Shown: piece by piece, positions 3,051 to 59,584 of the stretch
How the letters are laid out: each line of letters starts with the position of its first letter
Numbering within the stretch: the first letter of the stretch is position 1
Source: Nymphaea colorata
Lineage: Eukaryota; Streptophyta; Magnoliopsida; Nymphaeales; Nymphaeaceae
Direction: 5' to 3'
Assembly: GCF_008831285.2 (NCBI RefSeq)
Contig: NC_045146.1
Coordinates: forward strand, 22,027,703-22,091,702
DNA length: 64,000 bases
Notes under the pieces: model-generated
Told to the model about the DNA's origin: nothing
Database searches by the model: none
The model's input: only the letters and a program-made list of their open reading frames with translations
Position numbers and translations under genes: made by a program

Positions 3051-5179
3051 TGTTGACATACAGGGGAGGAGCCAAGGTTGGGGGGGTGAGCAGCAGGGGC
3101 CCTGGCCCCCCATTAAAAAAAAAAATCTTAAATTTACATATACAATTTTAAAAATTTCATTTATTCTATATAGAAATTTTGAAAAATGATATTTCGGTCC
3201 CTGTCAAAATTTTGACATTATAATTCAGCCCCCCTCATGAAAAAATCATGGCTCCACCCCCCTTGTAGCTTAAAGGATGCAAGCAAGAAGATGCCACTTG
3301 AGATGGTCAATAGGCTGGCTAAATCAGCTCACTATTTACAAAAAAACACAATAAAAGTTCAGAGACTACAACATCGAGGGTTTGAGACAATGTAGACCAA
3401 GAAGAAATCACTAGGACTATTGAAAGCATAAGGAAATTTTTAAAGAAACAGAAAAAAGGAACCATTAACCATCGATACAAATATCTATCAGCAGAAATAA
3501 TAGTTGACAAATGAAAAGAAAAACTAAGGTAACTTTCCAGTTTCAAATTCTTTATTACAAATTCTGCAAATTTTTGTATTCTTTTTTCCCACAGCAGTAT
3601 ATCAAATCCAACGAAACCTGTTTCCATCAGGAATTTAATAAACTGCCATCCAATAAGTAAGAAGAGCAGCTATATTATATTTGATCAAACATAGCCTCCC
3701 TGCATAAGCATACGAGTAGGAATTTTCCAATTAGACATCCACCTCTCTATTTTGGACAATAGGGGATCACACATCCTTTCACTCATACTGGCCGTGAAGA
3801 ACGGGACACCAAGATAGGTGATCGAGGTCTCCACCTTAGACCAATCCAGAATCCTTTCATATTTGCCAACTATCCTATCATCCACACGAAACGTAAGGCA
3901 AGACTTTCTGTTATCATTTACAAGGAAACCAGTCGACTTTCACAGCTCCTTGAGGAAAAATTTTATGCCTCTAAGAGATTTAACCATGCCCTTCGCACAC
4001 AATAATACATCATCCGCAAAAAGAAGAGCGTAGATTTTGGGCAAAGCTGGTGCCATATCTGGAACGGTGATCTCTCTAACCGAAATTCAACGAGATCTAA
4101 TCCCATTGTACAATCCAGCCAACTACTTCTTGCCAATTAGCCGCTTATTAAAGCACCTACAAGTTAGCATAATATTGATACTACATTAGTATCCCCAGAC
4201 TCGCAACTGATGCTTCTCTTTCTCAGTGAATCAGATAATTCACCTATTATATCTTCAAGCCCATTTCCGCTCTATTGACATTTAATAGTTCAGCGAATTT
4301 TCTTATCCGCGTCACTAAAAGTACCCCGTTAATATACAACTAAAAATCAGAGGAGGAAAAGGAGAAAGAAGAAAAAACAAGCATGAGAAAAGGAAATAAG
4401 CACGAGATCTGAATTATTCTTCGCTGCTACTACTCGTACTTCAAACAAGAACCCCCAAATAGAGGAACAGCGACGGCATTAACTTCCCCGATGGCCTGAG
4501 AGTTTCTTGACACCTCAACCATAAATTTGACGATAAAAAAAACCAGAAGCCAGAATAAAAAGTATCCCTAATCCTGAAACATTTCACTAAACTAACGTGA
4601 CCTGAATGTATAAAAGCACTCGCGCAGTAATTTGGGAGAAAAGAAGTGAACTATAAAACAGAGGAGCAAAACACTATAAGGATCGACCCCGCACGGCCGG
4701 GAAGGAGACAATGAGGAAGAATCAAAATTAATAAAAGGAAAGGGAGAAGGGAGAGAATGAATCACCTTATACAAACTATCCGGCCAGGGGACGGGGATCT
4801 GGTAGCCAGAAGGCGGAGGAATGAGGCAGAGCGGAGATTCCTCTGGCATGGGGCAGTGACGCTCGCGGTAGAAGTTGCGTTCGCGGCTGAGCTGGCTGTT
4901 CCTGCGGGGGTCCTCGCAGGGCATGTGGTCCACGGCGTCAGCCGGGCAGGCCTCCAACGGCTGCCCTTCCTCCACGAGCGCGACGAGCCTCGCCCTCTGC
5001 CGTGCGTCCGTCGCGGACAGCGCAAGCGCCTGCCGGCCGGACGCGGCGAGTGAGTCGCCGAGCCTAGTGAACACCAGGAGGAAGAACACCCCCACGGCCA
5101 CGAAGAAGGCTAACGAGACGAGGTCGAGGAATTTCCACCGGCTCCCGTGCTTCTTCGAGGTCGGATTCGTGTGTCCCAT
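1..5179 (-). CDS. QUA3: QUA3-type pectin methyltransferase (DUF248), 3' end cut off by window
   Basis: Homogalacturonan methyltransferase of the plant DUF248/Methyltransf_29 family, expected to be a type II Golgi membrane protein using S-adenosylmethionine. Exons on the minus strand, all with GT-AG borders and matching phases: 4766-5179, 2287-2490, 1992-2202, 1318-1579, 857-1225, 554-649, and 1-95 continuing off the edge. This gives about 550 residues; roughly 50-60 C-terminal residues lie outside. Residues 17-37 form a single membrane anchor after a short basic tail. The luminal part has the family's paired-Cys region ([21 protein letters not shown]), the SAM-binding ALDMGCG at 200-206, [34 protein letters not shown] and [17 protein letters not shown]. 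The start at 5179 opens with MGHTNP, closely resembling Arabidopsis QUA3 (At4g00740), and no upstream in-frame alternative looks better. Intron 1 (2491-4765) is swollen by repeats and a LINE remnant. No break is seen in the visible exons. Confidence 0.93.
1690..1835 (+). repeat. dispersed repeat with palindromic GGCAATTGCC core, copy 1
   Basis: This copy sits in QUA3 intron 3. It begins with a near-palindrome around 1697-1712 and continues through an AT-rich stretch to a conserved GGTGCCCCTTGGAG-type block near 1780. Similar copies are seen at 39240-39405 (same strand), and at 24495-24615 and 25440-25530 (opposite strand). A further copy of the core lies at 34255-34270. It looks like one end of an unclassified transposable element. 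Confidence 0.6.
2989..3047. repeat. (TC)n microsatellite
   Basis: An uninterrupted dinucleotide run of about 59 bp inside QUA3 intron 1. Short GA/CT runs also occur in intron 3 of the same gene (about 1636-1668 and 1842-1856) and near 1953-1982. Confidence 0.97.
3062..3265 (+). repeat. dispersed AT-rich repeat ending in GGCTCC-type block
   Basis: Flanked by GGAGCC at the left and GGCTCC at the right, with a central AT-rich segment. The segment around 3150-3245 reappears in reverse orientation at about 25040-25160, and a more diverged relative lies at about 47985-48150. The left and right GC-rich blocks are roughly inverted. Element class unknown; it lies in QUA3 intron 1. Confidence 0.6.
3684..4090 (-). 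pseudogene. LINE reverse-transcriptase remnant in QUA3 intron 1
   Basis: Minus-strand translation shows the FADD catalytic box of a non-LTR reverse transcriptase ([13 protein letters not shown], about 4003-4040), followed by a typical plant LINE block with YLGVPFF and a WMSNWK segment towards 3690. One in-frame stop (about 3940) separates the two parts. There is no endonuclease and no 5' RT domain, so this is a dead fragment of about 400 bp. It is in the same orientation as its host gene. Confidence 0.8.
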
Positions 5180-7225
5180 CTCGCCTTCCTCTCAAACCTC
5201 ACTTGAGATCTCTCTCATCCGTCGGATCTAACCGGAATCTCGCCGGAAACCGGTGTACTTCCTAGTCGATGGCCGAGACAGAGCGTCCAGTGAAGCGTGC
5301 GAGATGAGAGAGCGTTGTCGTTTTGCTCCTTTGATCTTCCTAGAGTGGAAAATCAATATCCTCCTAGCAAACTGTTGAACTTGTAACTCAAGCTTCTGCA
5401 TTGCATTGCTGCCATTTGTAAGTTCGGTTGCGGGATTAGAGGAACCTATGCCTTTTTTGAGGTACTAAAGGGAAGGCAAGTTACTTTTCATGGTATATAA
5501 ATGTAGGTGCAAAGGGGGCCCATCGTCAGGGATGAAAACTGGAAATTTCTAAATTTTTGTTTAAAAATATTTTAACAAACTAAACATCTTGATATATTTA
5601 TAGAAACTAATTTCTTTAGTTTAAGTTCTTTTTATTAAAAATTGAGATTTGTCCATGATCAAAATTTGATGTTATATGAGTGGCTCAGTTTTACTTATTA
5701 TAACAATATAATTTTTCTTCAGTTTATTTTCAAGATTATATTTTAAAATTAGAATTGGATAAAGAAAACACCTTGATTGTTGCATTTAAACTATCTGGTT
5801 TTTGTTTGTGACCTAATGGTCTGAGACCTACGGTTGATAGCTTTTTTTTTTTTAATTATAAGAGACATACACTTATAATTATTTCAATTAAAGTAAAAAA
5901 AAAAACTATTTTACAAAATAAAAGAAATCATTAAAAAACTAACAAAAGCTGTCTCAGCATGATGTAACTTGAGAGTTGGGGCTCCTATTTGATAGTTGCC
6001 AGCAAAAATAAAAACCTATGTTAGAAACAAGAAAAGTGTATATAATCTTACTTTTGAGGCTCATATCCTCACTCTTCATGTGTGGCCCCGATTTTTAAAT
6101 GAGCACCTGTTGGCGTTGGTGGATTATATTTTTTATGGGGCTGTTTGGTAACAGTAATAATATATTATTATTTTATATATTTTATTCAAAAAATTAAGAT
6201 ATATTCGTGGAAGTATCTTATGAATGTTCTCCAATTTTGAAGTACATCAATGAATAGTAACGCACTGATATGGTTTCCAAACGACTCCCTATAAGATTCG
6301 AGTTAATTCTACTTGGATTTGAATTTGGAGTCAGATGTTCTTCCGAAACTGAATTTAGGTTCGAGTAACATCAAATATGTATATTTAAACAGGTTGGATG
6401 AACTTGCATTCAAGTCAAGTTCAATCTTAGAACACAACTGCATAAATAATCTAGCTCCAATGTCCTTAATAGGAACCTATTTTCTTCACTAAAAATTATT
6501 TAATGGATCTAAATTTGGGTTGATAGAATGTAGGCCTGTTTCCAAGTTTGCGTCCTTCGAGGCAAACCTCGTTATATATGTTGTACTACTGCACGAAAAT
6601 TTGGTACGTCAGTACGGTTAATGACAAAAATGTCATTATTTGAATTAAAAAAAAATGTAAAAAAAAAGAAATTGGAAAAAAAAAGACTCAAAAGAACATT
6701 TTTTTTATAATTTCCAAAATGCCCCCCCTTTTTTTTTCTTTTGGCATATGATTGTTGTGTGCATCGACGAATGCACGCAACTCAAACTCCCTTGGAGAGG
6801 TTTGCGTAGCATTATATATATAAAGAATGGTTTTAACCCGCCTCATTTTTCAGAGTTGTCATCCAATCTTTCTTCTTTCTGCCTGTCATCTCTTTCCTTC
6901 TCTTTCGTTCTTTGTTTCATAATAATCTTCTTTACTCTAGGATACAGATCCTCCAAAGAGAGAAAAAGACTTCAAAATTTGTGAGTGATTTTACTCATTA
7001 TATATGTGTGTGTGTAGAAAATGAGTAAAACCAATCTCATTTCGCAATTAAAGATAGATAGACGGAGTTGCTTAAGTTGTCTCCAATAGTAATTTTCATG
7101 ATCTAAATTTTTTTGTATACGTTCTTATTTGAGGAGTTTGAACAGCATGGAGCCCTTCCAACCAATTAGTATCTTGGCATCCCATTTCATGCTGGAAAGC
7201 TGCATGAACCTCAATTTACATCTCA
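5180..7225. other. intergenic spacer, QUA3 upstream flank
   Basis: About 5180-5340 is GC-richer and should contain the QUA3 leader and core promoter; no clear TATA box on the minus strand was found close to the start. From 5500 on the sequence is AT-rich with poly-A/T runs and no supported gene. The right end (about 6830-7225) leads into the copia remnant and may include its decayed 5' LTR, whose borders I could not fix. Confidence 0.6.
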
Positions 7226-9860
7226 TTATGGTATCAAAGCGGTGAAAGACTTCAAAGCTTCAAGTCCCATATTTTTTCTTTACTTATCAATGGCGTCCTA
7301 TGGCAATGACAGATTCTCAGGGACAAAACTTGACAAGTGGGTCTGCTACGCAACAACATATTGTCGTGGAGACAGGTACCACCACTCTCAAAATTGCAAA
7401 TGTTCTATTAAATGGCTTAAATTATATGTCATGATCCAAAGCTACTACTCTTTTTTTGAGTGAGAAACCCAAACTAGGGTTTGTTAATGGAAAAAATCAA
7501 AACCCGCTATTGACAACCCTAACTCTGATGAGTAAGAGTCTGGGAATCATATGGTCATGTTTTGGTTATTGAACTTTATGGATGCTAAAATTGCTGAAAG
7601 TTTTTATTATTTCAAAACTACCGATGAAATAAAGAATGATGCCAAAGAATTAAATAATACGACGCTCATGTGTCAACTCTTTAATGAAATTTATGATTTG
7701 AAGACATGTCTTATGTCATTGAGTTATTATATTGCTATGCTAAAAAAGAAGTAGAATGAGATGGACTCTTATTGTTCACTTTCAAAAGATCTTGCTCACA
7801 TTAAGAGGATTATGGACAAACAAGAAGCCAAATATTGATGACATTTGATATGCCCTTTTTGAATATGATGCATAACACCTTCTTACGAGAAGAAAAAAGG
7901 AGGAAGATTACGAAGACCGGTGACATTGTTGATACTAAAACTAATGTTGAAATAATTGAAAATGTTGCTTTTAATGTCTCAGTCATTAGAAAACATGAAT
8001 AAAGCATAGAGGTTCAGCCTTTCGAAAATAGAGACAAACAACCGGTGTGCACACATGCAAAAAAAAGGGACATGTCTGAAAAAAAATGCTAGAATTTACA
8101 TGAGATGCCGAACAACAAACAGGTCTTTTAAAGCAGCAGTATAAATCGTAGGCCCAATTGGTCCAATCTGACGCCAAAGAAGGTGAGGTTACTCTTGCTA
8201 CCATTGCAAAGATGATTAAAAATTTTAATGGCCATAAAAAATATCAACACTGTAACTACAACATTAGTGTTCACTTCACCGAGGAATCTGCCAGGTATGA
8301 ATTCAGACACCTCTTTTATTGGAAAATAATCTTGGATTGTGGATTCGGGTGCATTGAACATATGTTATGTTTGCATGATAACTTGAAGGGTATAGAAAAT
8401 GAACCTGAAAATAGAACTATCCCTATAGCTAATGACACTTCCATTAAAATTGTTGGAGTTGAAAAACAATTTTTTTTTTTGAAAAGGATCTGAAGATTCT
8501 TTTATGTCTAACCTAGCATCTAATATTCTCTTTAAATTGCAATGTTATTTTTTCTCCTACCAATGTAATCTTTCAGGATAGGTTGACGAAGATGAGATTA
8601 GTGAAGAAAGAGAAGAGAATGGAGTGTACGTGAGTCAATGTAATAATATTGTTATGACTGCTAGCTCAGGATTTGATTCTCACTTATGGCTTTGAAGACT
8701 TAGCGACCCATCTAGTAGAGTTTTGCCTTTACTATTTCCTCATGAACCATTTGATTTACATGTACGTGAAATTTGTCAATATGAAAAATGACTTGTCCTT
8801 CTTTTGGTTTGTCCCAAACTATTGCTAGTAAACCGTTTGAATTGGTGCATGCTAATATTTGGGGTCCTGTCCCAATAGCCTCATATAATGGTTTTAGATA
8901 TTATTTATTATTTATTGATGATTTTTCTAGAGTAACTTGATTATATCTTTAAGTTTTTTTGAAAAAATTGTGACTTGTTATAATATGACGAGAACTAAAT
9001 ACAATGTTTGTATTAAAACCTTAAGAAATGACAATGGGACTGAGTTTAAAAACAACTTTTCTGGAAATTTTGATAATATGAATGGCATGATGCATCAATA
9101 TTCTTGTGTAATGACACTCCGTAACAAAACAGAATGGTCAAGAGAAAAACTCGTCATATTCTTAAAACTATCATTTCTTTACTGTTTCAGTCTCGTGTAT
9201 GCCTAAACTGTTTTGGAGAAAAGCGAGTATGACTACTTGTTACCTGATTAGCCGAACTCGTAACAAAACAGAATGGTCAAGAGAAAAACTCATCATATTC
9301 TTAAAACTATCATTTCTTTACTGTTTCAGTCTCGTGTATGCCTAAACTGTTTTGGAGTAAAGCGAGTATGACTACTTGTTACCTGATTAGCCGAACTCGT
9401 AGCTACAGACTAAGAGAAAAATTACCTTTTCACATCCTTACAAGATGCAAGTTTGACGTCAATCACTTGAAATTATTCAAAAACACTATCTATGTTATGA
9501 TCGACAAAATGAACATGACAAACTTAGTCCACAAGCTCGCAAGTGTGCATGGGATATTCAGTCAACAAAAAAGGCTATAGATGCTATAACCCTTACGACC
9601 AGAGCATGTATATCTCTAGAGACATCAAATTTGATGAGTCCACACTATATTTTAAAAGCCACCATGATCAGGAAAGTCGACAGGGGAAGACTACTTTGCC
9701 CAACATTAGCATATATGATGATTTAGTTGCCATTTCTACCAACCAAGGATATCATAACGCATTAGAAGAAGCTCAAGTGCAGACTTTGACCGAAAATATG
9801 GGAGTTTATGAAGTTGAACGGGGCACGACTGAGGTCACCCAACCTAGATCAAACCAGTAA
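7226..9860 (+). pseudogene. decayed Ty1/copia retrotransposon (gag, protease, integrase parts)
   Basis: A primer-binding-site-like motif TGGTATCAAAGC (about 7229-7240; the intact form, complementary to initiator tRNA-Met, is TGGTATCAGAGC) precedes a broken gag. The gag part shows WLLNFMDAKIAESF (from about 7566) and KDLAHIKR (near 7795). A protease-like piece with DCGFGC in place of the usual D-S/T-G-A follows near 8337. The integrase core fragment includes LRNDNGTEF (near 9030), then HQYSC, FWSKASMTTCYLI and YRCYNP (near 9575). Stops and frameshifts are frequent and the element ends before any reverse transcriptase, so it is inactive and 3'-truncated. Confidence 0.85.
9121..9398 (+). repeat. 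139-bp tandem duplication inside the copia integrase
   Basis: Copy 1 is 9121-9259 and copy 2 is 9260-9398. They differ at only about two positions (CTCGTCAT/CTCATCAT and GAGAAAA/GAGTAAA). Because 139 is not a multiple of three, the duplication itself breaks the integrase frame. The near-identity shows it is much younger than the decay of the surrounding element. Confidence 0.93.
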
Positions 9861-12800
9861 TTTTTGAACAAGTATTAACTCTAAAACCAAGATTGTTATT
9901 TGGTTATTTTGAGCTTCATTTATGGCTTTTAATTCTTGAGCTATATGTGAAAGTCCTTTTTGCCCTTTTCAGATCATGAGTTGAGGTTCGTCATCTCTGG
10001 TAATGTCCATCTTGAATGAAGTACTTTCAAGCTTTCTATTTTTTTTCTTTTTAAGATATATAGAGAATGCATATCATACAATATATGGTATGAGGCTCTC
10101 GATCCTTTTTCCTCATAAAATATATGGGCCGGCGAGGTTTCATCTTCATCATGACAAAACGCTGATTTAATTTCTTTTGTGAGTTGCTTATTTAGTATCA
10201 CAATCCCATGGTTAATGGTTTCATTGAAAGAGAACGTTGATCCTTAAACCCTAAACTATTTCTTCAATGACCTTCTCCAGCTGAAGCTTAAATTTTGAGG
10301 GAAACTAATTTGATTTCATGAACGAGTCAAACTAGCCGAATGCAACGAAAGCATGTCATGTATCCTAAGGTGACAAAATAATTGAGTAGAAACTTCGACT
10401 GCTCTTTCTCGAGTCAAACCTAATTGGACTTGTTATGCACCGAGAAAAGTGCTTTTTTTTTACCAAAATTTAGGCAAAACTTCTAATTATACATGGGGTT
10501 TTCCCCTTGTGGCCTTGTGTCATAGTAGATAACAAGACTATTTTTTACTACATAAAAAAAAAATCCAACCACATATATATATATATTAATCACAAGTCAA
10601 TTTTATATGTACTGCGTGGGCAGAACGAGGTCAAGGTGCAGAGTAGGAGAAGGTGCGTTCACATTGGTCAAAGTAGTCATGTTCACATTGGTCAAAACCC
10701 TTCTAAACCGTGCGCATGTGTCCCAGATCTTTTTTTTTTTTTTTTCTCTCTTGCTTTTCTGTCTCTGTGTCAACTCTCATAAAATAAGTGAAAGAAATTC
10801 CTCCTCATTTGAATATTCATCCACCAAGATGTTTTGCCATAAATTTCTCCTTTTTTTTTTTGTTCCTTTTCCTTGTGCCCATTAATAATAAGAGGCCCAG
10901 AATTGATTCCCAAGTTTGAAATTCAAGCAATGATTCTAATGCATTCACATTTTCAGTCATTGAATGAGTGAATGGACTTCGCCCAGCAATTAAAACAAGT
11001 TGGTCGCTGGCTCGTTTCTAATTAAAGCTACCCAGCACCGTCCTCGTATGGCTGCAATGAAGAAGGGTTCAAACTGGGCTCGGACCATGTTTTTTAGTTT
11101 CTACTAAGAGCACCCTAATCTCGTTTAGCATGATTTAATTCTGAATTGGATGCAGAATAAGTAATACCATATGCTTATCCCGTTACTATTTGTACATTTT
11201 TTTTTGTTAATCAGATCGGATTATATGCCGTGTTTATGTCACGCTAACCACATTTGCACGTAAAAATGAACTGATCATTGGTTTATTTAGATCATGGTTT
11301 GGAAAGAATTGGTCCATTCGAAACCACTGTTGATCCAAACTGGGCCTTGAATACAGAGCCAGTTAGAGTCAGAGTCAGGAAACTGACATGTATACTGGCG
11401 CTAACCTGGGCAGGGAAAGCACCAGCGTTAGTGTCAGTGGTGCCCGCAGTATGATAGCGTGCTTGACCTCTGGTCTCGACTCTGTCCTGTCCCGTTCTTG
11501 CAGGGCTCATCAAGAAGGCCCTGACACACGAACCCACAAGAAAGCTAGATGTGTGGACCCAGTGAATCGGGTCCAATACGATCTTTCGACTGGATCCGAA
11601 AATGTAATCGGTCCCCACCAAGGTTTAATTTGGATCCAGACCTAGGATTTAAAACATGATCCAAGTCTTGATCAAATTGACACACTTTACATTGGCCAGA
11701 AATGGATTAGATTTGAGTTAAAATGTGTTTAAACTATGTGAAATCGAGACATTGATTTGCATCATGAGGTGTATTTTACGTCACATTTTAATTCTTCCAA
11801 GGCAAGTAAAAAGCCATGCAACTCTTGGCAATTTCTCGATGTCGGTTCTACCAATCATTCTATTCTATAGGCCACGAACGTCCCCACACGGACAAGGCCT
11901 TTAAGTGGGGAGCATATCTTAAGCACAAACATGTGATTAACATTAGTTTATGTGCATAATTGAGGAGAACATACGCAATATGGATACTGGTAGGTGCAAC
12001 AGTAGAATATATATGTATATATTTTCTCTCTTTCTCTCTCGTTATTATTATGGATCCCACCTCTAAAACGATCAGGTCGGGCAATTATAAAATAATTATG
12101 CGCCCTCAATGAGTGCCTCGTCTAGTTGACAAGCTAGGAGTTTGCAATTAAGAACTTAGAATGGAGGAAATTCAATGTATGTTTCAATTATTAAACTATG
12201 AGTTGCTTAAGGCTATGAACTGGGTCAAGTCCTCATTGTCAAGCTTGAGCTACTGTATTCTTGTGCAGGCCAAATATTCGTTTTTGTTCCTTTAGTTGAA
12301 CTTCACAAACTTGGTCATATGTGAAAAGTAGATATAAGATTATTAAGTTCGACAACAAATCTCTTTAGGAGAAGAATTTCATCATACCACCCATTTGAAA
12401 CTGAAACTTAAAGTCACTATTTAGTAACTCAACTTATGTTGTTATCCATTAAAGTAATGGTTTAGTGACTCAACTTATGTTGTTACTTTATTAGTACCTA
12501 TTCAACCATTTCTATCCCCATATTATTATATTAAGAAAAAAAAAATATATATATATATATAGAGTGGGTGTCCATTTCATACAGAGAAAAGATTTTCCAT
12601 TTCTTCACAGTTACCCTAACATTAGTATTTCTTCATATGCACATGACTTGAGAGAATCGATTTTAACTGCTTATGGTTTCTGACAGAAGGACCCATATAA
12701 CTGAATCATTTCACTTTAATGGATTCAGTGACATCATATCTGCAGCCCTATCATTTTTCATCATTTAAGCTCTTTATTTGCTTCAAAGCTTGAACTGGGA

Positions 12801-15800: not shown

Positions 15801-16340
15801 TCTTAGATCGAGGCATTCATTATTATCCCTTCTTTGACTGTTTGAAAATGATCAATGAGGCGTGTTTGGAGTCATGTCACAGATTTAATTAGTATGAGGC
15901 CTACACCTCCATCGCAAGCAGCTTGTCACATCAAGATGCTGTATATTAATTAAACTGAGAAATTTGTCATAATATAGTTTTAAGAGAACTTCTAACAAAT
16001 AATGGCATGAAATTGATTGAAGAGACGCGATATGCAACGGCCGAAATATGCTTTAAAAGGTATTATTTTAATTACCTTATGAAGGGAAGAAGAGGAAACC
16101 TTTTAACAGGGAGGGAAACGAAAGGACCGAGGGAGCACCAAAATCCGGAAAATGGAATTCCCTTGGAATTGTAAGAAACCAAGGGTAGTTTCGTCCATGT
16201 GCGTAAATGTACTGCAGTTACATCCCCGAGACGAACCAAAGGAAATCCAGAGTCGTCCTCCGTCTCAGTCAAGTACTTAAGCCAATAACCAATGGCGAAG
16301 GGCATTATTGGTATTTTAAAATAATAATTGCGTTGCATTT
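9861..16340. other. intergenic spacer with scattered repeats, no supported gene
   Basis: Contains poly-T tracts (10731-10746, 10849-10861), a short direct repeat of CACATTGGTCAAA (10659, 10684), a (TA) run at 12546-12560, a GA-boxed SINE-like copy at 14265-14420, and a fragment at about 13555-13610 rich in CGAGCTCGAG-type motifs like the subterminal repeats of the hAT element at 57 kb. The open frames here lack recognisable domains or coding character. CCAAT motifs at 16280-16295 lie about 270 bp upstream of the IQD start. Confidence 0.6.
14265..14420 (+). mobile_element. SINE-like, tRNA-derived element
   Basis: A polymerase III box A matching the 12-base consensus (TAGCGCAATTGG, 14272-14283) is followed by a near-consensus box B (GGTTCAAAATC, 14324-14334) at a spacing suited to a tRNA-derived promoter. 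The flanks do not fold into a complete tRNA, so it is not called as a tRNA gene. The 3' end and target duplications were not resolved. Confidence 0.5.
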
Positions 16341-16561
16341 TTATCTCGGCGCCAGGCAGAGCACCGGGTCAGGCTGTACGGGCCCCATCTCTCTCTCACA
16401 TCGGCGATCTTTTCCCGATTTTCTCACTTATTTATCTGACAGACAACCCTTTGCGCTCTTTCTTCCCTTCCCCTTCCGAGTTCCAACCATCAACTCTCTC
16501 ACGCTCTATCTCTTGCCTGTCTCTTTTCCGTCGTGTTCCATGGTGGCTGTGGGGTGACGAG

Positions 16562-18924
16562 ATGGGAAAGGCCGGGAGGTGGCTGAAGAGCCTGCTGGGC
16601 GGGAAGAAGCCGGCGGCCGAAGAGAGACCGACGAAGGAGAAAAGGCGATGGGGCTTCGGCCGGTCAGGCCGAGACCGCGAGCGGGGCCAGTTGGCGGAGG
16701 AGAGGCGGGGGTCGCAGAGGGAAGACGGTGGCTGCGTCTCCACCGGTACCGCGGGTGTGGATCCCGACAAGCGAGCGATAGCGGTGGCCACGGCCACGGC
16801 CGCTGTGGCGGAGGCCGCGGTGGCCGCCGCCCAGGCAGCCGCCGCAGTAGTCCGGCTGACAAGCAGTGGACGTCGTTCCATGGCGGGTGGCAAGAGGGAG
16901 GAGTGGGCGGCGACCCGGATTCAAGCTGCCTTCAGAGGCTACCTGGTTTTCCTCTCTCTCTCTCTCTCTCTCTCTGTCTTTCTACGCTAGACTCTTCCCA
17001 CGGCGGGGAACAGGCCATTCGTTCCAAGGAAGTCTGTTACATTGGGAAGTTTCCGATGGTTGAGGGTCCGGGACGCCCTGGTCTTACTATAAACCATTTT
17101 CGTCATTCGGTTTCATTATGTTTCTAGCCCGACTTTAATCAAACGTTGCCGGAAAGTTAAGATTTCCGGGCGACCAGTTTCGCGCCCTGCGCGCTTTGCT
17201 AGGTGCAAAATTCGTTCGAAAATAGCGCCACCGTCCCCTCCCTCTTCGTATGAGAAACTCAAACGTTTAGGAGTCGGAACGTTTCTGTTTCATATGATCC
17301 GTGTTTGACGGCTCGGGAATCGGCTCGAAGAGACTGGAAGCTTCTCTCTGAGCGGGTTTTTCGTGATTTGTTGATGCTGGACAAGAGAGCTCGGCTCGAG
17401 TCCTTCAGGTCCGAGTTATGGGTGCTCACTCCCTCTCTGATCGTTGGGGAAACCCGCTGGACGAGAGCGGGATGGTCCGTGGAAGTTTTCCGGGTCCTTT
17501 CGGGACTCGGTAATTCCGATTCGAGCTTGTCGTTTTTGACGAGTCTTCACCTATGGTTTGTACTTGGGAAGACAGCCGCCTGTCATTCATAGTGATTTTT
17601 TATTTTCCTATTTTACCCTCACCAAACTACAGAAACCGCCTACCCTTCTGATATGTGTGTGTGTGTGTGCAGGCAAGAAGGGCACTGCGTGCGCTCAAGG
17701 GGCTGGTGAAGCTTCAGGCTCTGGTGAGAGGGCACATAGTGAGGAAGCAGACAACGGCAACCTTCCGCTACATGCAGGCGGTGGTCAGGGCCCAGGCTCG
17801 CGCCCGAGCCCACCGAGCCCACTACACCGAGCTCACTAACGCCCAACACCATAACCTGGCTCGCACTCCCCACCCCAAGCCAGCATCTGCCGTAAGTGAA
17901 CTCTCTTTTCTTTCTTTCCTAGGTGCATTTTTCGGTTTTGTGGGCAAACTGGGTATTCTGAAAGTCAACATTCGTCTCTGATGCAGGGTCCACCGACGCC
18001 GGAGAAAAACGAACCCAGGGTCCGAGCCAACAGAACCAAACACCACCGGTCTCCTTCTGCTAAGGTACTTTCAGAGAGTTGTTGTGGCTGCTTGCGTGCG
18101 TGCGTGTGTGTGTTTACGATCTGCAATGTTGAAAGATGTGTGTTGTTGACAAAAAGCAGAGCACGGTGAAGCCCAACTTTGTGGAAGCAGAAGCTGATCG
18201 GACGCACGTCGGCCGGTCCTGGCTGGACCGGTGGATGGACGGCCGTGGTGTGACGGCCGACGAGGAGAACGCTAAAATCCTGGAGGTAGACCCCGGCAAA
18301 CCACTGAACTCGAAGCGCAGGCCCGTCCTCCGTCCTTCCCACTCTGTTCACGCCACCTCCGACCGCAACAGCTACAGCCAGAGCTTCGGTACCACAGCAA
18401 TGCCCGATTCTCCGTCAAGGGACTCCACCGCAGCTCACTTGTCGACCCCTTCGCCCTCCTCCGTCGAAATGCCGGTCGACACGCTGAATCCACTCCGGCT
18501 CCCTCAAGAAGACAGCGGCTGCATCTTCGCCACCGCCGAGAACAGCCCCCAGTTCTTCTCGGCGTCGTCACGGCCGCGGAGCGGAAAACACGGCCCTTTC
18601 ACCCCGTCGAAGGGCGAGTGCGCAAGGAGCTTCTTCGGCGGGTATGCGGACTACCCCAACTACATGGCCAACACCGAATCGTGGAGAGCCAAAGCGCGGT
18701 CTCAGAGTGCGCCGAAGCAGAGGCCGGAATTCGACAAGTCCAACTCCGTGAAGCGCCTCTCGGCGTACGGTTTCGCCGACGTGCGTTCGAGCTCGAGCAG
18801 CATGCACTCTCAGAGGTCGTCATTGCATACGAAGTTCACCTCCAAGGCTTATCCGGGTTCAGGACGGCTCGATAGATTGGGCATGCCGCTTCGCACTGGC
18901 AGTGAAGTTGGCTACAGGAATTAG
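16562..18924 (+). CDS. IQD17-like: IQ67-domain calmodulin-binding protein, IQD17/18-like
   Basis: IQD proteins are calmodulin-binding scaffolds, usually on microtubules, plasma membrane or nucleus. Exons 16562-16945, 17673-17891, 17987-18064 and 18160-18924, all phase 0 with GT-AG borders, give 481 residues. The start [16 protein letters not shown] is the standard IQD N-terminus. An alanine-rich helix (about 75-100) precedes the IQ67 domain (about 113-180): [12 protein letters not shown], then [20 protein letters not shown], and a basic [17 protein letters not shown] tail. The first intron splits IQ67 between codons 128 and 129, as is typical of the family. A C-terminal DUF4005 block lies at about 390-432 ([20 protein letters not shown]). 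The protein is very basic and Ser-rich. Assignment to IQD17/18 rather than another IQD rests on the DUF4005 form and on synteny. Intact. Confidence 0.93.
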
Positions 18925-26566: not shown

Positions 26567-29500
26567 CTAGTCGGGAGAAATTGAATGATCAGAAACTTTT
26601 CCCTTTCTTTCATAGAGCTGAATGTGGAAACCATTTGGAAATGCCAAGCCAGGCGTTCGGACTGTCTCTCCTCCCCTGACAACCTTCCAGCTGACAATCC
26701 CAATATTCAGAGCTATTAATGATCAGCAGATAACTTTACAAGCCACACTTAGGAAAACAATAAGATTAATAATCCATTCAAGCTTCGAACGTTCAAGTCT
26801 TTGTAAGTTGTCATGAGGGGTGAAGGACGCCCTGCTCGGGTCAATAGTTAGTAGGCAGCTGGTGGGTAAGGGTTGGCAGCGATACACAAGTAGAAGTGCA
26901 GCATAGAATAGAAGTGCACCCCTGGCACTGACATAGTTTTGGAGCACGAGGGTAGGGAAGGAGGGGGCCTTCGGCCCTCTCTAGAGCAGTAGGATCAGCC
27001 TCTTGCTCATCCAAAGTCAAAGGTCAAGTTAAAGTGCAGTGCAGAAGCACACCCTTGGCACTTGCACTGACATAGTTTTGGACCCCGAGGGGAGGGAAGG
27101 ATGGGGCCTTCGGCCCTCTCCCGAGCAGTAGGATCAGCCTCCTGCTCAAGCAAAGTTAAAGGGTTGGCAGCGATACACAAGTTGAAATGCAGCGAAGAAG
27201 AACACTGTTGGCACCGACATAGTTTTGAACCCCGATAGAGAATGAGGAGGTCTTGGGCCCTCACTCAAGCAATAGGATTAGCTCTTCCACACCCAAAGTC
27301 TTTATAAGTGGGAAAGGAATTCGATGTGTTCAAGTTCAGCTGCTTAAGATTGAGGTGCTTGAGTGGACCAAAGAAGGTCATCAAGGACTCGCATCGATAC
27401 CCATAAGGCTCTCTATATTTAAAATCCTATTAAAGATGAAATTATTAAATATCACATGACCTGAAATTTACTCCATGGTCTTGACATCTATTTGGGTATA
27501 TATACAAGTACCTGAATCTGGTAACCAGACAATGTAGGAATACTGCCATCTGAATTCTAGCGAAGTCTGCTCCGACACAGAGTCTCATTCCACCACCAAA
27601 AGCCATAAAATTCTTGGAGTCGAGATCCGAACTCTGCGTTAGAACTCCAAGGCAATTATACAATAAGTGTTAATAAATGTGGAAAATGGTGAAAAGAAGA
27701 TCAAGCTCAGTCAAACCATAGTCAACTCAAGCACAGGGAAATCTCGAAAGGTCTGACTTTTCAAACAATGTTGTTAAAATGTTTCAGAATCAAAATTGTA
27801 AGCTGACAACTTGTGAATCAGCAAAAATATCAAAACGTTATTTTTTAAATAAATGAAGATAAAATTAATTAAAAAAACACGTTTGAAAATTGAAGTAAAA
27901 ATTGAATTGGCCACGGAATTGAATCTGTTTGCCACCAATTTGATTGGAATCGGCCCAATTCCATTCCAACCCTGATAGAGTTGATTTAAACGTTAATTAA
28001 ACATGTTGGCAGACAAAATCCTGCAAAAAAGTCAGAAAAAAATTAATAATTTCCTCGTTTTTTTTAATGGACGAAACTGTCATGCTCGGCGTTTGGATGA
28101 CCGGATTTGGCATCAGAAAAAGACCTTTTAAAGTTTAATTTTGATGTTAAAATCAGGTGTCTAACACGGTTATATCCTCACCTCAAAAAGATCTGAAAGT
28201 TCAGATACAAAAAGAAACAAACAGGTAATATATCTGGCAACAATCTATTTTAATCGGCAGGCAGGATAATAATTCCTTCTTTCGCTCGTCTCGTCTACTT
28301 GAAAGGAAAAAACATCAGTAGTCTCTGTGAGAATGAAGGCTTCTACATACTGATATAGATGTATTAGCTCAAATGAGAAAGCTTTTGAAAGGAAGGAGCA
28401 ATCTTACCTCCCAGCGGGATGGATTGAAGGAGAGGGGGTCAGGAAATATAGAAGGATTCAAGTGCACTGCAGGAGGACATGCCACAACCCCCCAGCCCTT
28501 TGGAATGGTGTACCCTGCAACCAAACCCAGCTGTTACTTTACCCATGAAGCAGGCGAGGAGGAGCTGCCAAGACCAAAATGAGTGGGCATCACATGCCAA
28601 GTTGCTGGAGGAGCAACAACAGAGAGAGTTTTGCCTTGGGCATCTCAAAGAGCTCTCTCGACTATAGCACTCTCAAGACATTATTAAGGTAGCGTTTGAA
28701 TACCTGGAGCTAGATTCCCGGCTTAAAGTTGTTGGTGGTAAAATCTTTGATCGAGCTTCCATTTGCCCCATTTGTTTGATTTGATGGAACTTTTTGTTTT
28801 GGGCGGTGAGAAGGTTAACAGGTAAAAATTTTCTTCCACCATTAAAGCTTCACCTGTTCAGGTGAAACTTTAGTGCCAGTACTAAAGTTCTTTAATGGCT
28901 CCAAAACTCCCAGCCCTAAAGATCTTGTCTGCAGGAACTTACCACAGAATTTGAACTAAAGTTTCAACTCTACAGTAAATTCTGTGCATTCAAAAGGCCA
29001 TAATGAAAACTTTCTCGAAATGGGGCGAAAAAATGCATGTGTCATGCCATCAGGTGCACGCAAGCAGTTGCAAGAGAACTGGTACTTCATTTTCACTGCA
29101 GCTCCACCGAGAAATGGTTTGACCTTGTGCTGAGGACACACATGAGTATGCAGGAGATTGTTATTCAAAGATAGCTGATGTTCCCTTAACTTTGAACTAC
29201 CTCTGTCTCGAAGAAGACTTCTTGGAAGGAATTCGAGTGGAAGAAGATTCCTCGGGATGTAAGTTCCCACCATAAGTAAGTTGTCGACTAAGTCTCGTAG
29301 ACAAGGTAGCCGAAATTCGTCTCATTCGATGCTGATCATTTATTGGCGGGGAAAATTAGCCTTAACCCACAAACACTCCCCTTACACAATCTAACACGAT
29401 ATTTGGGAAAACTTTTGACAGGACAGTATAACCCAACCCAAGGCCTGCCGATACCTTCATTAGATAAGAATGAGCGCGCTTTCTGTCGCAGGGCTACCTA

Positions 29501-42260: not shown

Positions 42261-45200
42261 TCAGAAGGAGGATCCTTGGGAGAGGGGCGCGGGCGCGGTC
42301 CAGTATGTCTTTCGGGCGATGAGGAGCTTCTCTCGGAGGAGGGGTCCGTCCTCGTGATCGACGATCTGGCTCTCCCATTGCATTCCGTCCACCGCCGACT
42401 TCACCTTTACGATGACGTCCACGTCGTCCCTCAACACAACTGCCCCTCCGGCCGCAGGATCCGATCCATCTCCAGCACTATGTCCTCCATTCTGCACCTG
42501 CGATTCATCAGAGAGAGAGAGAGAGAGAGAGATGTTCATGAGTCCCAGAAATGGGGAAAATCGCATACGATGATAGGGTAAAATGCCGAATCGTCCGATC
42601 GTTTGGTATTGCGGCATCGAGGCCGTCAATTTGGTCGTCTATGACCTGCTGATATAATGAATCGCTAGATCACCGGTGTGCAGGCGTCGAAACCGTCCAT
42701 TCCTTTTTGACAAACGGGAGGGTAATCCCTGAGCTACTGTCACCACGTGCGACGCTATTCCTACGTTCATCTCTTGAATGCATGATGACGATGATGTAAA
42801 AAGCCCACAAGGCTGGTGATTCTACATAATCACCTTCTTTCTTCGACGACTAGCTTAGATTCCTCATGGAAGACGAACGGCTGTAAAAGCTTAGTACCTA
42901 TGTCGAGGCAACAAGGAAATGACTAATGGCGTTTTGTTAGAGGGAATTCCGGTGAGAATAAACAGCTGTTCGCCATTAAGCTCGACGCAAGCTTAGAACT
43001 CTGGAACGCTTACGAGTCTCTGTACGTTGCAGTTAAGATTGAGAGAGAAATACAGGGGCCTGGTTTGAACACAGGGATCTAAGGAGGTCAGTGGGAGGTA
43101 GACTGGAGACATGAATTATGGCGCAGTAACTGAGATTCACAACATCAGCAGTCCACAAACAAAAGAAGATTGGAAAGGTTGCTAAGAATTTCCAATTTCT
43201 GAGGAATTTTAGGAGACAGGAATGAGCAACAGATGGTGAAAGACTTCAAAGGTCAGTAATTGGACCAGATATGAGGAATCAACAGGTCTGGTTTCTGTAG
43301 AGCCTACGTTTTTTAATTGATAGGAGCTCGAATCAGATGATAGCTCAAACCCTTTGGGGCTCTGCATCTCCTCAAGCGGGGAGAGGTGGCTGAACTAATT
43401 GAGAAACATGAGGTGTTTTGCTTGGTTTTCCAGGTATCGCTTAATGCGTTACAAACGCAGTAAGCTTGCTTTACTTGGCAGAAAGGAGAAGCAAACAACT
43501 TCTTTTGTACCTGTCTTTGTATAAAGAAAACACTGAATCTGCATGTATGAAATCATACGTCCTGGGATATGTAGACATTGCTTCACACCTGAAACGTTTC
43601 AACCAAAAAGAAGATAGAGAAACTCATGTTGGTGTATAATTTTGAGAATTCAAGAGAAAACATGCAGTTATGACAAAATTCTTTAATGTGAGCTCGAGAA
43701 CTCGATGAGCTGCTTAGCTACATAACTTACCAGCTCATATAAGTTCCAATCAACCCTCTCTCGTAGATTACTCCCAATGTATCAACTTTAGCCTCCACGG
43801 GGACAACATTCATAACCCATAGAGGATCTTGAATCAGAGCAGCTGCGAATCCACCAAGGTGAGCATTCATATCCAATATATTCCTGTATCTCCCCTTCTC
43901 TTCGAGCTGGTTTATCACTGCTCTGTAGTGACCAATTCTCTTCTTCCACAGGGCTGTATCTGCTCTGTAAACATCCTCTGTAATCCCCTGCACGCTGCCA
44001 CTGCTGATCCTAGGTGGCAATGCTGTTAACCTATCCGGCCATTTCTTCAGCTCTCCTCCAGCAACCTCCTGTATCCCGCTGACGTTGGGAAGTGGCGTTA
44101 TGCATGTCTCCATATTTTTGTACCTACAAGGGGGAAAGCGCTGCCAGCTTAAGCCGGAGGTACAAATAAATTTCCTGCATCACTCTTGGAACATTAGGGG
44201 AAAAAATTCCTCACCATGCAGAGTCAGGATCCTGCCCTTCACAAAAGACTGGTCTCTTGAAGACTTTCCTGTTGAGGTTGCAGTGGACGTGGTTGGTGGG
44301 TTTCTGCCAGATCGCGATGTCGTTCCTCTCCTTTATCTTCTTCCAGCAGAGACTCCTGGCGACTGCTTCGATTGCAGACTGTTCTGCACTCAAGTCCTGC
44401 TTAGTCCTCTCCCATCCTTTCCAATGGTTCTTCCAGTTGATGGGAGGGCCAGAAAGAATCCAGTAACCACCAGGCCGAAGAATTCGGTCCACTTCGATCA
44501 AATACTGGCCATCTGCATCAAGAATTACAATCAGAACACTCGTCAACAGGTTGATAACCTTTGGTTTCTTACAGTAAATAAAAATCTGAATGGTATTATT
44601 CATAATGAGATTCCTCTTATTAGTGAGATTTCTCTTTTCCTTACCATACTGGTGCCAGGGAATCAAGCAACGGGAGCAATGCGCCATGTCAAAAGCTCGA
44701 GCTGGGTAAGGGAGCCTCTTGGACGCCATGACTCCGATCATCGCCGGAACGCCGCGTTCTAGTGCGAACTGAACCTGAGCTTCGTGGGTGTCTCGCGGAG
44801 CAAACGACATAGCCAGAATATCCCTGGACAGGAGGTACGCTCCCCAACTCGCTACCTGGGTTTGAGAAAAATGGAATCAGCAAATGCATGCATCTAGTTA
44901 ACTGCCAATATGCCAAATCGCTAGCCTAAATGGAAATGCATCACCTTGATTTTCCATTTCAGGAAAGTATGTCAAGGACCAAGGCACCCACCAAGCACAT
45001 CACTAAGTAGGAAATGGAAAGGAACAAGGACAAGACCAACCATTTTTTCGCATGAATATTCGGACTTGGGTAGTCCAGTTAGGAAAGAAGACAGCGAAAT
45101 CCTGTTTTCTCGGCAAAAAATTCAGCCCAAAATCTCGCGATTAAAAAAACACGACGTTACAAAATCGAAACAACGAAGACCACGCAAGCATGACACTGAA

Positions 45201-46062
45201 AATGAATACCATAGTTGTTCAGATTCATTGACAACAAATTGGCAAAATTCCTATACCTAAAACTGCAATGTACTTGTAACCCAAATGCAAAGAATAAAGT
45301 TTTGCTGCCACGATCATTATATTTAACAGTAACACATGGAAGGTAAAGAAAGAAACTAAATGACAGAAAAGAGGTTACCCCACAACCGGTGTCAATGGCG
45401 GTTCTGATCGATCCATCGCGGAGAGGAATCAGTCTCTCTATGTCATCGATGTACGCGTCTGCTCCACGGGGAAACATGGTGCCGCCGCCAGGAAACCGGA
45501 ACCGATCGTCCTCCACACGTATCCAGTTCTGAACGGCCTTCTCGACAGTCAACTCCCGGTGGGGCACGTTGGCGAACCAGGCCCAGTCCCTGCTCTCCGG
45601 CCACCGGAACGGCATCCTGTACCCGTAGGGCGCCGGTATCCGGCACTTGAGGAGCTCGTTCGGTTCGGGGCAGTGGCGCTCCCGGTAGATGAGGCGGTCG
45701 CGGTCGAAGCGCAGAGAGCGATCGCGGTCCTCGCATGGGGTGTATTCGCTGTAGCGAGCGTCGCAGGGAGGGACGGAATGGGGTTGATCGCCGGCGCCAT
45801 CGGGATTAGTGGAATGGTTCGGTTGGTGGTGCGCGGCAAAGTCGAGCTCCACAGACCGGTGCCCCGAAATGTTGAAGCTTGCTGGGAGAGTTGTGCAGGA
45901 GATGTCGGAGACGATGGAGGCGCCGCCGGTTCCGTGCTGGTAGAGGCCCAGGAGGTAAAACAGGGAGCAGAGGCCGGCGACGAGCACGACGGAAAGGAGG
46001 TTGGCCTTTTTCTTCCAGTATGGCTGGAAGATTCTGGACAGAGGTGACGACGCCATCTTCAT
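42261..46062 (-). CDS. PMT15: PMT15/16-type DUF248 methyltransferase with a last-exon frameshift
   Basis: Golgi type II putative SAM-dependent methyltransferase related to the pectin methyltransferases. Exons: 45379-46062, 44645-44855, 44215-44512, 43731-44123, 43511-43588 and 42261-42497, with GT-AG borders and consistent phases. Membrane anchor at 20-40. Landmarks: [20 protein letters not shown] site IDTGCG (223-228), [61 protein letters not shown], and the C-terminal HEDGPL and YWTAPAP. Residue order and wording match Arabidopsis PMT15/16. In the last exon the G-run at 42443-42446 (CCCC on the plus strand) is one base short of what the family needs: as written, translation stops about 3 codons after RPEG and loses about 60 residues, yet the lost frame is perfectly conserved beyond that point. 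Start taken at 46062; a second Met follows at codon 3. Confidence 0.92.
42443..42446 (-). other. 1-nt apparent deletion in a homopolymer of the PMT15-like gene
   Basis: The family has Arg-Pro-Glu-Gly-Ala at this place, which needs GAGGGGGCA-type sequence; the window has one G fewer. Downstream codons ([14 protein letters not shown] to the stop at 42261) are intact in the shifted frame. Either a very young pseudogenising change or a sequence error. Confidence 0.85.
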
Positions 46063-46308
46063 GGCCACTGAAGGAAACGAAAAATTTTCTGCTATATTGG
46101 CTTGACGAAAGATGAAGAGATTTTTCGGTATTGACGAAATCGATTCAGAGAGGATGTCACCCGTCTGACGAGGAGCCGTTTGATTTCTCTATTACACTGG
46201 TTGGCTGTTGACTCCCTCCCACACGATGATTGTGCGAGGGAGGAAGGGATAGGGCGGCTAGACTCTAGAGTGGGGAAGCCTGAACCCACCCTCTTTGGAG
46301 CCTTTACG

Positions 46309-56301: not shown

Positions 56302-56352
56302 TGGCAGTCATTGGCCCTAGACGCACCATATGGGCAGGGCCAATGACTGCCA
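56302..56352. repeat. 17-bp perfect inverted repeat, 17-nt loop
   Basis: Arms TGGCAGTCATTGGCCCT and its exact complement. The stem does not extend beyond the 17 bp. It is too short for a standard plant miRNA precursor. Confidence 0.9.
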
Positions 56353-57540
56353 TAGGAATTGCTTGGTGATATGAAACCGGATCAGCCTGATGATACATTA
56401 ATTTAAAAAATTAATCGATTGTTAATTTAGTATTTTAATTAAGTTGTCAGTGATACGCATTAGGTTTTTCAAAGTTTTTAATTAATAGGAAAGAGAAACT
56501 GAAATTTATCACGTTGCTTCCAAATTTATCTCAGAAAATATCTAAACAGATTGTGAGTAGTTCACCTGCAAATTAGACGGCTTCGGACAAAGAAATTGCC
56601 ATTCAACAACTGATGGTTATCATGAACAATCCAAAGAAAATGATGTGTGAACGGTTTAAATTTGTCCCCCCACATGGCCACATATCTTCATAAGCTAAGG
56701 ATTATTTTTAGTGCATGTCAAATAATTGAGTGCGTCATATAAGTGGAAAGCAAATACACGCATATGGTAGTCGGCGGCTTTTCCCTCAGTCGACATGTAC
56801 TGAACCGAACGTTCAGATTCAGAAAATTTTCTATATACAAGGACCTGCCTGCCTGGCTCGCCGGACATCAGGCGTAGACGGCCATGGATTGCACGCTGTG
56901 GCTTGCCTGTCCACTGTTTCTGTCACTCGTTCTCTTTTTCTTCCACACCCTCCGGCAAGGGAAAGGCAACCTCCCACCCGGACCAAGGGGGTAGGGCTGA
57001 ACAACGAGCTGAGTAACTCGAACTCGGCTAGTTAAAGCTCGGCTCGAATTTGAATTCGAGCCAGCTTTTATACTCAACAAGCCGAGCTCGAGTTGTCCGT
57101 TCAACTCGTTTATTTTATCGAGCCAAGTACGAGTTCGGTTAAGGAAGCTCGCTTAACCCAACTCGGCTCGCTTAACCCAAGAAAGGATATTTATTTTTTT
57201 CCTCATTCGCGCACTTCACGTCTTTTTTTTCTCTCTCTTCACTTTCTTCCTCCTTCTGGCGACCGTGGAATCCTCAAACCCTTGTTCCTTCTCTTCTCTC
57301 CTTCTCTCTCTCTCTCCCTCTCTATCTCTCTCTCCCCCTCTCTCCCTAAATCAGAGAACTGAAACCCTCTCCCTCAAACGAGAGAGGGTCTCAAGAACCC
57401 AATGATTTTTAACTTTGTTTTGCAGAAGAGAAGAAGAAGAAAGAGAAAGAAGCGTCTGATTTTTTTTTTGAGAAGAAGGCGCCCAAAAAGCGTTTGGTTA
57501 TGGCTCTGTGAAGAAGACCAAGGGAGAAATAGGGTTCTCC

Positions 57541-57776
57541 CTCAAACCCTTGCAGCCTCCCTCCTTCTCTCTCTCTCCTCAAACCCTCCCAGCCTCGCCT
57601 CTTCTCTTCTCTCCTTCTCTCTCTCCCTCTCCTCAAACCCTCGCAGCCTCGCCCCTTCTCTTCTCTCCTTCTCTCTCTCTCTCTTCTCCCTCAAACCCTC
57701 GCTCTCTCTCTTGTCCCTCAAACCTTCACAGATTCGCTCCTTATCTCTCTCTCTCTTCTCCCTCAAACCCTCGTAG
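57541..57776 (+). repeat. minisatellite of CCTCAAACCCTCGCAGCC-type units
   Basis: About six imperfect units of roughly 35-60 bp, each with a CTCAAACCCTCGCAGCC core and a CT-rich spacer. It may derive from a 5' leader captured with the neighbouring gene piece and then amplified. Confidence 0.8.
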
Positions 57777-57780
57777 CTTG

Positions 57781-57988
57781 GTGGGGGGAACAGGCTACTT
57801 GGGCCAACATCTGCTTCAAGAGCTCGTCGAAAAGCCGTATGACGTAGCTTTCACATACCACAGTGCTCCCAATCCTCCACCATCCCTCCTCCAGGCGCTG
57901 CCCCCTCACCACCACACGCCTTCAAGCTCGACCTCCAAACCGGCGAAGGACTCGACCTCATTGCCGATGCTCTGGGACAATGCCTAAA
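57781..57988 (+). pseudogene. captured fragment of a Rossmann-fold reductase (MAT2-beta/RmlD-like)
   Basis: Reads VGGTGYLGQHLLQELVEK, a nucleotide-binding GxxGxxG turn at the N-terminus of an NAD(P)-binding extended SDR protein, then YDVAFTYHSAPNPP. After a frameshift near 57918 the next frame continues AFKLDLQTGEGLDLIADALG, as expected for the same family (plant methionine-adenosyltransferase beta-related/dTDP-rhamnose reductase-like proteins). It stops at the element's subterminal repeats. Only the first ~65 residues are present, with no initiator Met in context, so it is a transduplicated fragment and not a gene. Confidence 0.8.
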
Positions 57989-58729
57989 CTAAACGAGTTA
58001 AACGAGTCGAGCTCGACTATAATAGTCGAGCTCGACTATAATAGTCGAGTCGAGCTCGAGCTCGTGTTAGGGAACTCGACTCGAGTTCGAGCTCGAGCTC
58101 TTTGAGCCGAGTCGAGCACGAGCTGGCCAAGCTCGGGCTCGACTCGGCTCGTGTGCAGCCCTACAAGGGGGTGGCCTATCGTGGGAAACCTCTTCCAACT
58201 GGGCTCGAAGCCTCATGCCACCCTTGCGAGCCTAGCTCGCACCTACGGCCCTCTCTTCTCCCTCAGGCTCGGCACTAAACGCGTCATCGTCGCCACCTCG
58301 CCCTCCGCTGCTGCCCTCGTCCTCAAGACCCACGATCGCACCACGTCTTCTCGCCCCATCCCTCAAGTAACCCAATTTGATTTATACTTCCCCTATTCCT
58401 TCATTTGGTTTGACTGCACCGGCTCGTGGAAGCAGCTGAAGGCCATATGTCGGACTCATCTATTCTCTGGCAAGATGATCAGCGACAGTGAGGGTTTAAG
58501 GTGACAGAAGGTGGAGGAGATGGTGAGACGCTTTTGCTCCAGTGAGGGCAAGGAGGTCCACATTCCAGAGCTAGTGTTCAACACCATCTTCGGAATGTTG
58601 GCTTCTAACATTTTTTCGGACCACGCGGAGAGAGCCACCGGGAAGACCGGCAAGATAAAGCGTCTCTCACGCAGGATGGTTGAGCTGTCGAATGCACCAA
58701 ACAGTTTCGACTACTTTCCGGCAATTGCT

Positions 58730-59584
58730 TGATGGGAGATTCCCCTCATGCATATACAAAAATAATATGCCCTAAACAGGATCATGTTCATGCTAAATCA
58801 TTGAAAGAAAACTTTAACTTAAGTGGAAGCGTACCTGAATCTATCTGAACTGCACGAATGATAGATCGCGGTAGGATCTTTCAGGATCTGTGCGGCACAC
58901 GTGTGGTCTCTCTCAGATAGGGAAGAGACAACCCTATGAAACCAACATTTCAGGCAACCATTCGCACGACCCCAGGGACCACTACCATTTTATATCAAAA
59001 GCAATTACGGATTCAACCTATCAAAGAGTTTATAATTGCGTACATATATCTATACATTATAAAATTACCCCATACCATATAAAATAACGTAATATCTCAA
59101 AATGCAATCACTTAAGCGGATATTTATATTAATACAGTCATAATGTCTGAAATTTCTCATAGACATATACCGGCCCACCAAATGAACCTTACAATCTTTT
59201 ACTTGGGCCAAATATGTCTTTATACATTCAGACGTTACATAAAACCTTAGGAGCTCATAACTGCTATTTTATTAAACGTCATTTTCACCAATCTTGTCCA
59301 TGATCATATCAACACAGAACCAAAGCGGCTTTCGCTATATTAAAATTAGTTAACCTTCATTGATCACAAATATTAACACAATCAATGACATAGATCTGAT
59401 ATGAATATATAATATGAGAATTACATGTAATGTGATTACAACATGTCTATTCTCAACTGGTCCAACTTTAAAACCTTATGGAGATCAAAAACACAAATAC
59501 AAAATGGAACCAAAGAACTTTAAATTTTATTCTGCAGAAAACTGAATATGTGTCTATACATAAAAGCAAACAAAATACAAACTC
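58730..59584 (-). other. possible LTR-side part of the copia fragment
   Basis: Lies between the broken P450 and the copia RNase H end. It begins with TG right at the P450 junction and is AT-rich without coding frames, as a minus-strand 3' LTR plus untranslated region would be. No second LTR is available for comparison, so this is a guess from position. Confidence 0.4.

Follow-up and report, generated by a model that had tools for sequence, protein, structure and literature searches.

The analyzed window, a 64,000-nucleotide stretch of the Nymphaea colorata genome, contains a P450 exon that is split by a short insertion. The first 36 codons of the exon (56884-56991, plus strand), which end in PPGPRG and were delineated from the reading frame of the empty site, lie on one side of the inserted DNA. 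The rest of the exon fragment (58172-58731, plus strand), recognized by its Pfam match, its PDB relatives and its stop codons, lies on the other side. By eye, we also spotted a perfect inverted repeat of 17 bp, TGGCAGTCATTGGCCCT (56302-56318) and AGGGCCAATGACTGCCA (56336-56352), upstream of where the P450 begins; it may represent another small inverted-repeat element or a hairpin. Elsewhere in the window, pieces of Methyltransf_29 (putative methyltransferase) genes are present on the minus strand at 43727-46188 and 4592-5191. The latter frame aligns with no more than the first 60 positions of the profile and could represent an exon or a portion of a second gene. Frames matching the IQ motif and DUF4005, presumably IQD-like, are located in a locally GC-rich stretch on the plus strand (16328-18924). 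Together with the P450, these gene pieces give the window the appearance of plant DNA.

The inserted element spans positions 56992 to 58163 (1,172 bp) with exact borders. It is flanked by two identical copies of CAAGGGGG (56984-56991 and 58164-58171), and testing of lengths from 4 to 13 confirmed that this target site duplication is exactly 8 bp and not longer. The outer 11 bp of the two ends (TAGGGCTGAAC vs TAGGGCTGCAC) match as an inverted repeat at 10 of 11 positions, and the best alignment of the ends contains 20 identities in the first 23 columns, with two mismatches and one gap. On this basis, the left terminal inverted repeat TAGGGCTGAACAACGAGCTGAGT covers 56992-57014 (plus strand) and the right one, ending in CAGCCCTA, covers 58142-58163 (minus strand). 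The general hAT end consensus is YARNG. Both a target site duplication of 8 bp and short C/TAGGG-type terminal inverted repeats, here with TAGGGCTG ends, are features of hAT elements. A previous sequence-only reading of this DNA had proposed the same coordinates together with matched ends and an exact 8-bp duplication, and all three proposals were confirmed.

Both subterminal regions are filled with short repeated motifs, a further characteristic of hAT elements. The left region (57015-57181) carries direct and inverted repeats of the AACTCG/AGCTCG type and has k-mers in common with the right end, while the right region (57985-58141) is composed of AGTCGAGCTCGACTATAAT tandem units and TCGAGC repeats. 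Counting 5-mers of the CTCGA/CTCGG/ACTCG/GCTCG type on both strands over 128 window bins of 500 bp identified the bins at 58000 (49) and 57000 (25) as the two richest of the window, at a mean of 3.0 per bin. Furthermore, 50 canonical 6-mers are common to the ends 56992-57182 and 57985-58163, whereas 500 randomly drawn pairs of equally long stretches from the window shared 17.8 on average and 42 at most. The hAT-style subterminal repeats of the previous reading are thus reproduced by both counts. Taken together, the ends, the subterminal repeats and the length of the duplication argue for an assignment to the hAT superfamily.

To judge the end pair against chance, we used two controls. The first one was restricted to hAT-type ends (YARNG) with an 8-bp duplication and a spacing of 100-6000 bp. 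Under this filter, the real window contained four pairs with scores of 10, 6, 5 and 5 of 11; the element is the pair with the score of 10, and none of the other three candidates resembles it. In 300 Markov-1 windows, a score of 10 never occurred; the highest was 9, found in 4 of the 300. In the second control, performed without an end filter, the window yielded 1,434 pairs with at least 10/11. The duplication was of low complexity (two letters or fewer, or a period of 1-3) in 1,433 of them, with the element as the sole exception. Most of the unfiltered pairs (1,409 of 1,434) come from low-complexity arrays in the 200-bp bins 31800, 32200 and 23800. Without the end filter, 5 of 60 Markov-1 windows, counted with low-complexity duplications included, held at least one pair of 10/11 or better, and the ends alone are therefore not as remarkable as the filtered test suggests.

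The strongest support for an insertion is independent of the ends and comes from the reading frame of the empty site. Joining the flanks minus one copy of the duplication results in an uninterrupted P450 N-terminus, which runs through the proline-rich hinge (PPGPRGWP motif) into the conserved exon. As the P450 frame is restored in this way, the site was empty before the insertion. The first three bases of the element provide an in-frame TAG for the P450 directly at the border. For 58106-58501 we obtained a Pfam p450 match (2.2e-15), and among proteins of solved structure, 58166-58501 is best matched by ferruginol synthase (4e-18) and sugiol synthase (1.1e-17), which is the reason why we take the P450 to be CYP76-like. 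A second in-frame stop, TGA, is found at 58502-58504, the piece behind it (58505-58729) has no Pfam match, and another in-frame stop occurs near 58730, where the recognizable P450 sequence ends and frameshifted or unrelated sequence begins. Due to the in-frame TGA at 58502 and the loss of similarity near 58730, we regard the P450 as a pseudogene; the element interrupts an exon of this presumably CYP76-like pseudogene.

No match to a transposase was detected in the 12 internal frames that were scanned against Pfam. The largest of them (171 aa) matched only Rossmann-type families and the other 11 returned nothing at E-values up to 1; outside this set lie a minus-strand frame of 94 aa that spans the left border (56868-57152) and other frames of 57 aa or less. 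Within the 12 scanned frames, the element therefore lacks a transposase of its own, as is expected for Pack-TYPE elements. Two further TAGGGCTG sites are present in the window, both on the minus strand, and neither was accepted as a family member: the site at 12743 is only the right end of the 5/11 pair 6851-12750, and the one at 28911 belongs to no candidate pair. A blastn search of the element against the window (E-values up to 0.001) gave only short matches to its CT-rich part outside the element itself, and no match was found in the plasmid collection. Among the matches listed in a literature search with the end sequence of the element, no transposon paper was recognizable by title.

Between the subterminal regions, the interior starts with filler (57200-57777, plus strand), in which repeats and the pyrimidine profile define two CT-rich blocks at about 57201-57350 and 57551-57775. 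The second block contains tandem units of 54, 37 and 27 bp, and the CT-rich units aligned poorly in MAFFT, with a mean identity of 42%. The filler is followed by a coding scrap (57778-57984, plus strand) in the same orientation as the P450. According to Pfam and to prokaryotic relatives, it corresponds to the glycine-rich loop and the beginning of an NAD(P)-binding Rossmann protein of the epimerase/RmlD type. In total, about 205 bp encode the N-terminal Rossmann part with about 68 residues, which reads SLVGGTGYLGQHLLQELVEKPYDVAFTYHSAPNPPPSLLQALPP in one open frame and continues as AFKLDLQTGEGLDLIADALGQ in another. The frame changes somewhere about 57900-57921, in agreement with the frameshift already seen in the previous reading, and the open frame of the scrap closes at a stop at 57985-57987, the start of the right subterminal region.

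How well the scrap can be recognized depends on the frames that are read. The 171-aa frame gave weak Pfam matches to Epimerase, NAD_binding_4, GDP_Man_Dehyd and Semialdhyde_dh. Read on its own, the long frame gave 18.5 bits for Epimerase, which is below the gathering cut-off of 20.9, but reading both frames with an X between them raised the score to 22.5 bits over the profile positions 4-44. Epimerase is the only Pfam family above its gathering cut-off for the scrap, and only if both frames are read. A PDB search with the long frame was topped by a designed repeat protein that matched residues 78-115, mostly the part encoded by the CT-rich DNA; the scrap was therefore searched separately.

In the prokaryotic genome collection, at least 586 stretches match the pattern that was searched, and ten loci were confirmed among the matches listed, with E-values that are relative to the candidate stretches only. 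In each of the ten relatives the match starts at the glycine-rich loop; in L001-L004 it covers at least residues 2-58 and crosses the frameshift. We also considered whether the Rossmann-like similarity could be due to chance in an ordinary hAT MITE whose filler is non-genic. The score of the single open frame and the designed repeat protein at the top of the long-frame PDB search would fit this idea. In contrast, the combined frames exceed the cut-off at the N-terminal profile positions, as expected, and ten relatives start at the loop, four of them crossing the frameshift, which makes a chance similarity very improbable. Thus, an N-terminal Rossmann piece is well supported by these comparisons, and the interior contains, as judged by similarity to other proteins, part of a protein-coding gene, the second hallmark of Pack-TYPE elements; its Pfam score exceeds the cut-off only when the two frames are combined.

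With regard to the protein type, the best-scoring relative (L001, E 4e-7, residues 2-58) is of the RmlD type. A Pfam analysis of nine of the ten relatives assigned four to RmlD_sub_bind, including the best-scoring one, four to the classical short-chain dehydrogenases (SDRs) and one to Epimerase. The longest tblastn matches, which extend to residue 68-70, belong to L002, L003 and L004; of these, the two covered by the Pfam scan (L002 and L003) are classical SDRs. Three of the four RmlD-type relatives match only to residue 32-41. Both observations speak against an RmlD assignment. An alignment does place RmlD-type sequences across both frames of the scrap, but it was forced to be global. An RmlD-type origin is plausible. 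The previous reading had described the piece as an N-terminal fragment of a MAT2-beta/RmlD-like protein. The Rossmann N-terminus stands with the Epimerase score of 22.5 bits and the RmlD part is plausible, but MAT2-beta specifically is to be taken as an assumption: the 25 PDB sequences listed for the scrap at E-values up to 10 include no chain of MAT2-beta. A search for the donor gene within the 64-kb window retrieved, besides the scrap, only chance-level tblastn rows (E-values of 0.55 and 0.84).

A closer look at the border between filler and scrap provides information about how the interior was assembled. By reading the sequence, we found that the last CT-rich unit, CTCAAACCCTCGTAGCTTGG (cf. 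the earlier CTCAAACCCTCCCAGCCTCG), stops a few bases short of the codons for the glycine-rich loop and that there is no start codon in between. Because a CT-rich unit reaches the loop codons without a start codon, the junction is probably non-native, with either two pieces joined or one piece that suffered an internal deletion. The same arrangement weakens the idea of the previous reading that the CT-rich block could be the leader of the donor gene. It would also fit if the scrap and the CT-rich block were separate nested insertions or successive acquisitions in an older hAT MITE, and not a single capture of leader and first exon, and so would the approximately 200 bp of DNA (57351-57550) that split the two CT-rich blocks and are not pyrimidine-rich (0.30-0.48 pyrimidine). 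On the other hand, no 6-bp direct repeats were shared in the three border comparisons, which represent a limited test of the nested insertion that the previous reading had named as a refutation, and one captured piece with an internal deletion would look identical. We rate separate acquisitions at slightly less than an even chance. They concern only the assembly of the interior and are compatible with the explanation of the whole element that we prefer.

According to this explanation, the insertion is very probably a short plant DNA transposon, a non-autonomous member of the hAT superfamily, whose filler contains a scrap of a gene for an NAD(P)-binding protein of the epimerase/RmlD type; the host is the most likely source of this gene. 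The borders, the duplication, the subterminal repeats and the similarity to Epimerase/RmlD proteins bear out the central proposal of the previous reading, a hAT element with a piece of protein-coding DNA inside. As suggested by the ends and the duplication, a hAT transposase provided in trans by another element would have bound to the subterminal repeats, excised the element at its terminal inverted repeats and inserted these into the P450 exon at a break with an 8-bp stagger. The scrap would have been acquired earlier, copied from a donor located elsewhere: break repair within an ancestral element may have copied foreign DNA between the ends by gap filling and template switching. Alternatively, two nearby elements may have moved as one, together with the DNA between them. 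We infer this acquisition step from published mechanisms, namely gap filling and fork switching, as proposed for animal Pack-TIRs (PMC8277862), and joint mobilization of neighboring insertions as a route of acquisition (PMC8903248).

As the scrap lacks its own start codon in the vicinity of the loop, comprises only about 68 residues and is frameshifted, we consider it a dead passenger. Alternatively, the element could be functional, with a chimeric or antisense transcript that regulates the donor gene or the P450. The common direction of scrap and P450 would be in line with such a role, as would the occasional transcription of Pack-type elements together with host exons (PMC8903248). However, the P450 frame halts at the first codon of the element and is broken again further downstream, the scrap carries a frameshift, and when three donor-like patterns were scanned for, one site was found in the element. 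A regulatory function is therefore extremely improbable. For the transposon with its dead passenger, it is conceivable, though rather unlikely, that it is one of many Pack-hAT elements with different scraps, and that a plant hAT family with GAGCTCG-type subterminal repeats habitually captures gene pieces. If this family were rich in captures, it would be one more lineage among the hAT families that do so often. As it stands, the element offers one clean instance in which a hAT transposon has probably captured a gene piece, with exact borders and an intact reading frame of the empty site, and adds one example to a documented process without changing the general view.

The previous reading had called gene capture less documented for hAT elements, a statement that understates the literature: it has been reported for maize (PMC3260210), maize and rice (PMC8903248), grapevine (PMC2528002) and animals (PMC8277862). 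Our element is therefore a further example and not a new phenomenon. Among the animal Pack-TIRs, hAT is the commonest superfamily (208 of 370), and Pack-hAT-N8_XT of frogs captured a piece of a 5' untranslated region; these cases differ from the present one in their animal hosts and, for the frog element, in a known donor (PMC8277862). The Hatvine-6 elements of grapevine, described in 2008 with genic interiors, are likewise hAT elements with common ends, and their interiors vary and frequently resemble genic DNA, but they are described as sharing a transposase coding sequence, none of which was seen in the 12 scanned frames of our element (PMC2528002). A further counterpart is provided by the Pack-hAT elements surveyed in maize and rice in 2022, which are also non-autonomous, with terminal inverted repeats, an 8-nt duplication and captured coding DNA that tends to be internal. 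They were called in whole genomes, whereas the present element is a single copy in one window (PMC8903248). In the maize Ds elements of the Ac/Ds group of hAT, gene fragments were reported in 2011 for two Ds2 and nine Ds-l4 elements, which the authors called rare in hAT (PMC3260210). Their ends (TAGGGATGAAA) and their subterminal motif (AAACGG) differ from the TAGGGCTG ends and GAGCTCG-like motifs of our element. Nevertheless, Ds-l4 and Ds2 resemble it in their ends starting with C/TAGGG, their 8-bp duplications, their subterminal repeats and their filler, which could sometimes be matched to host genes, and Ds-l4 also in a modal length of about 1 kb (PMC3260210).
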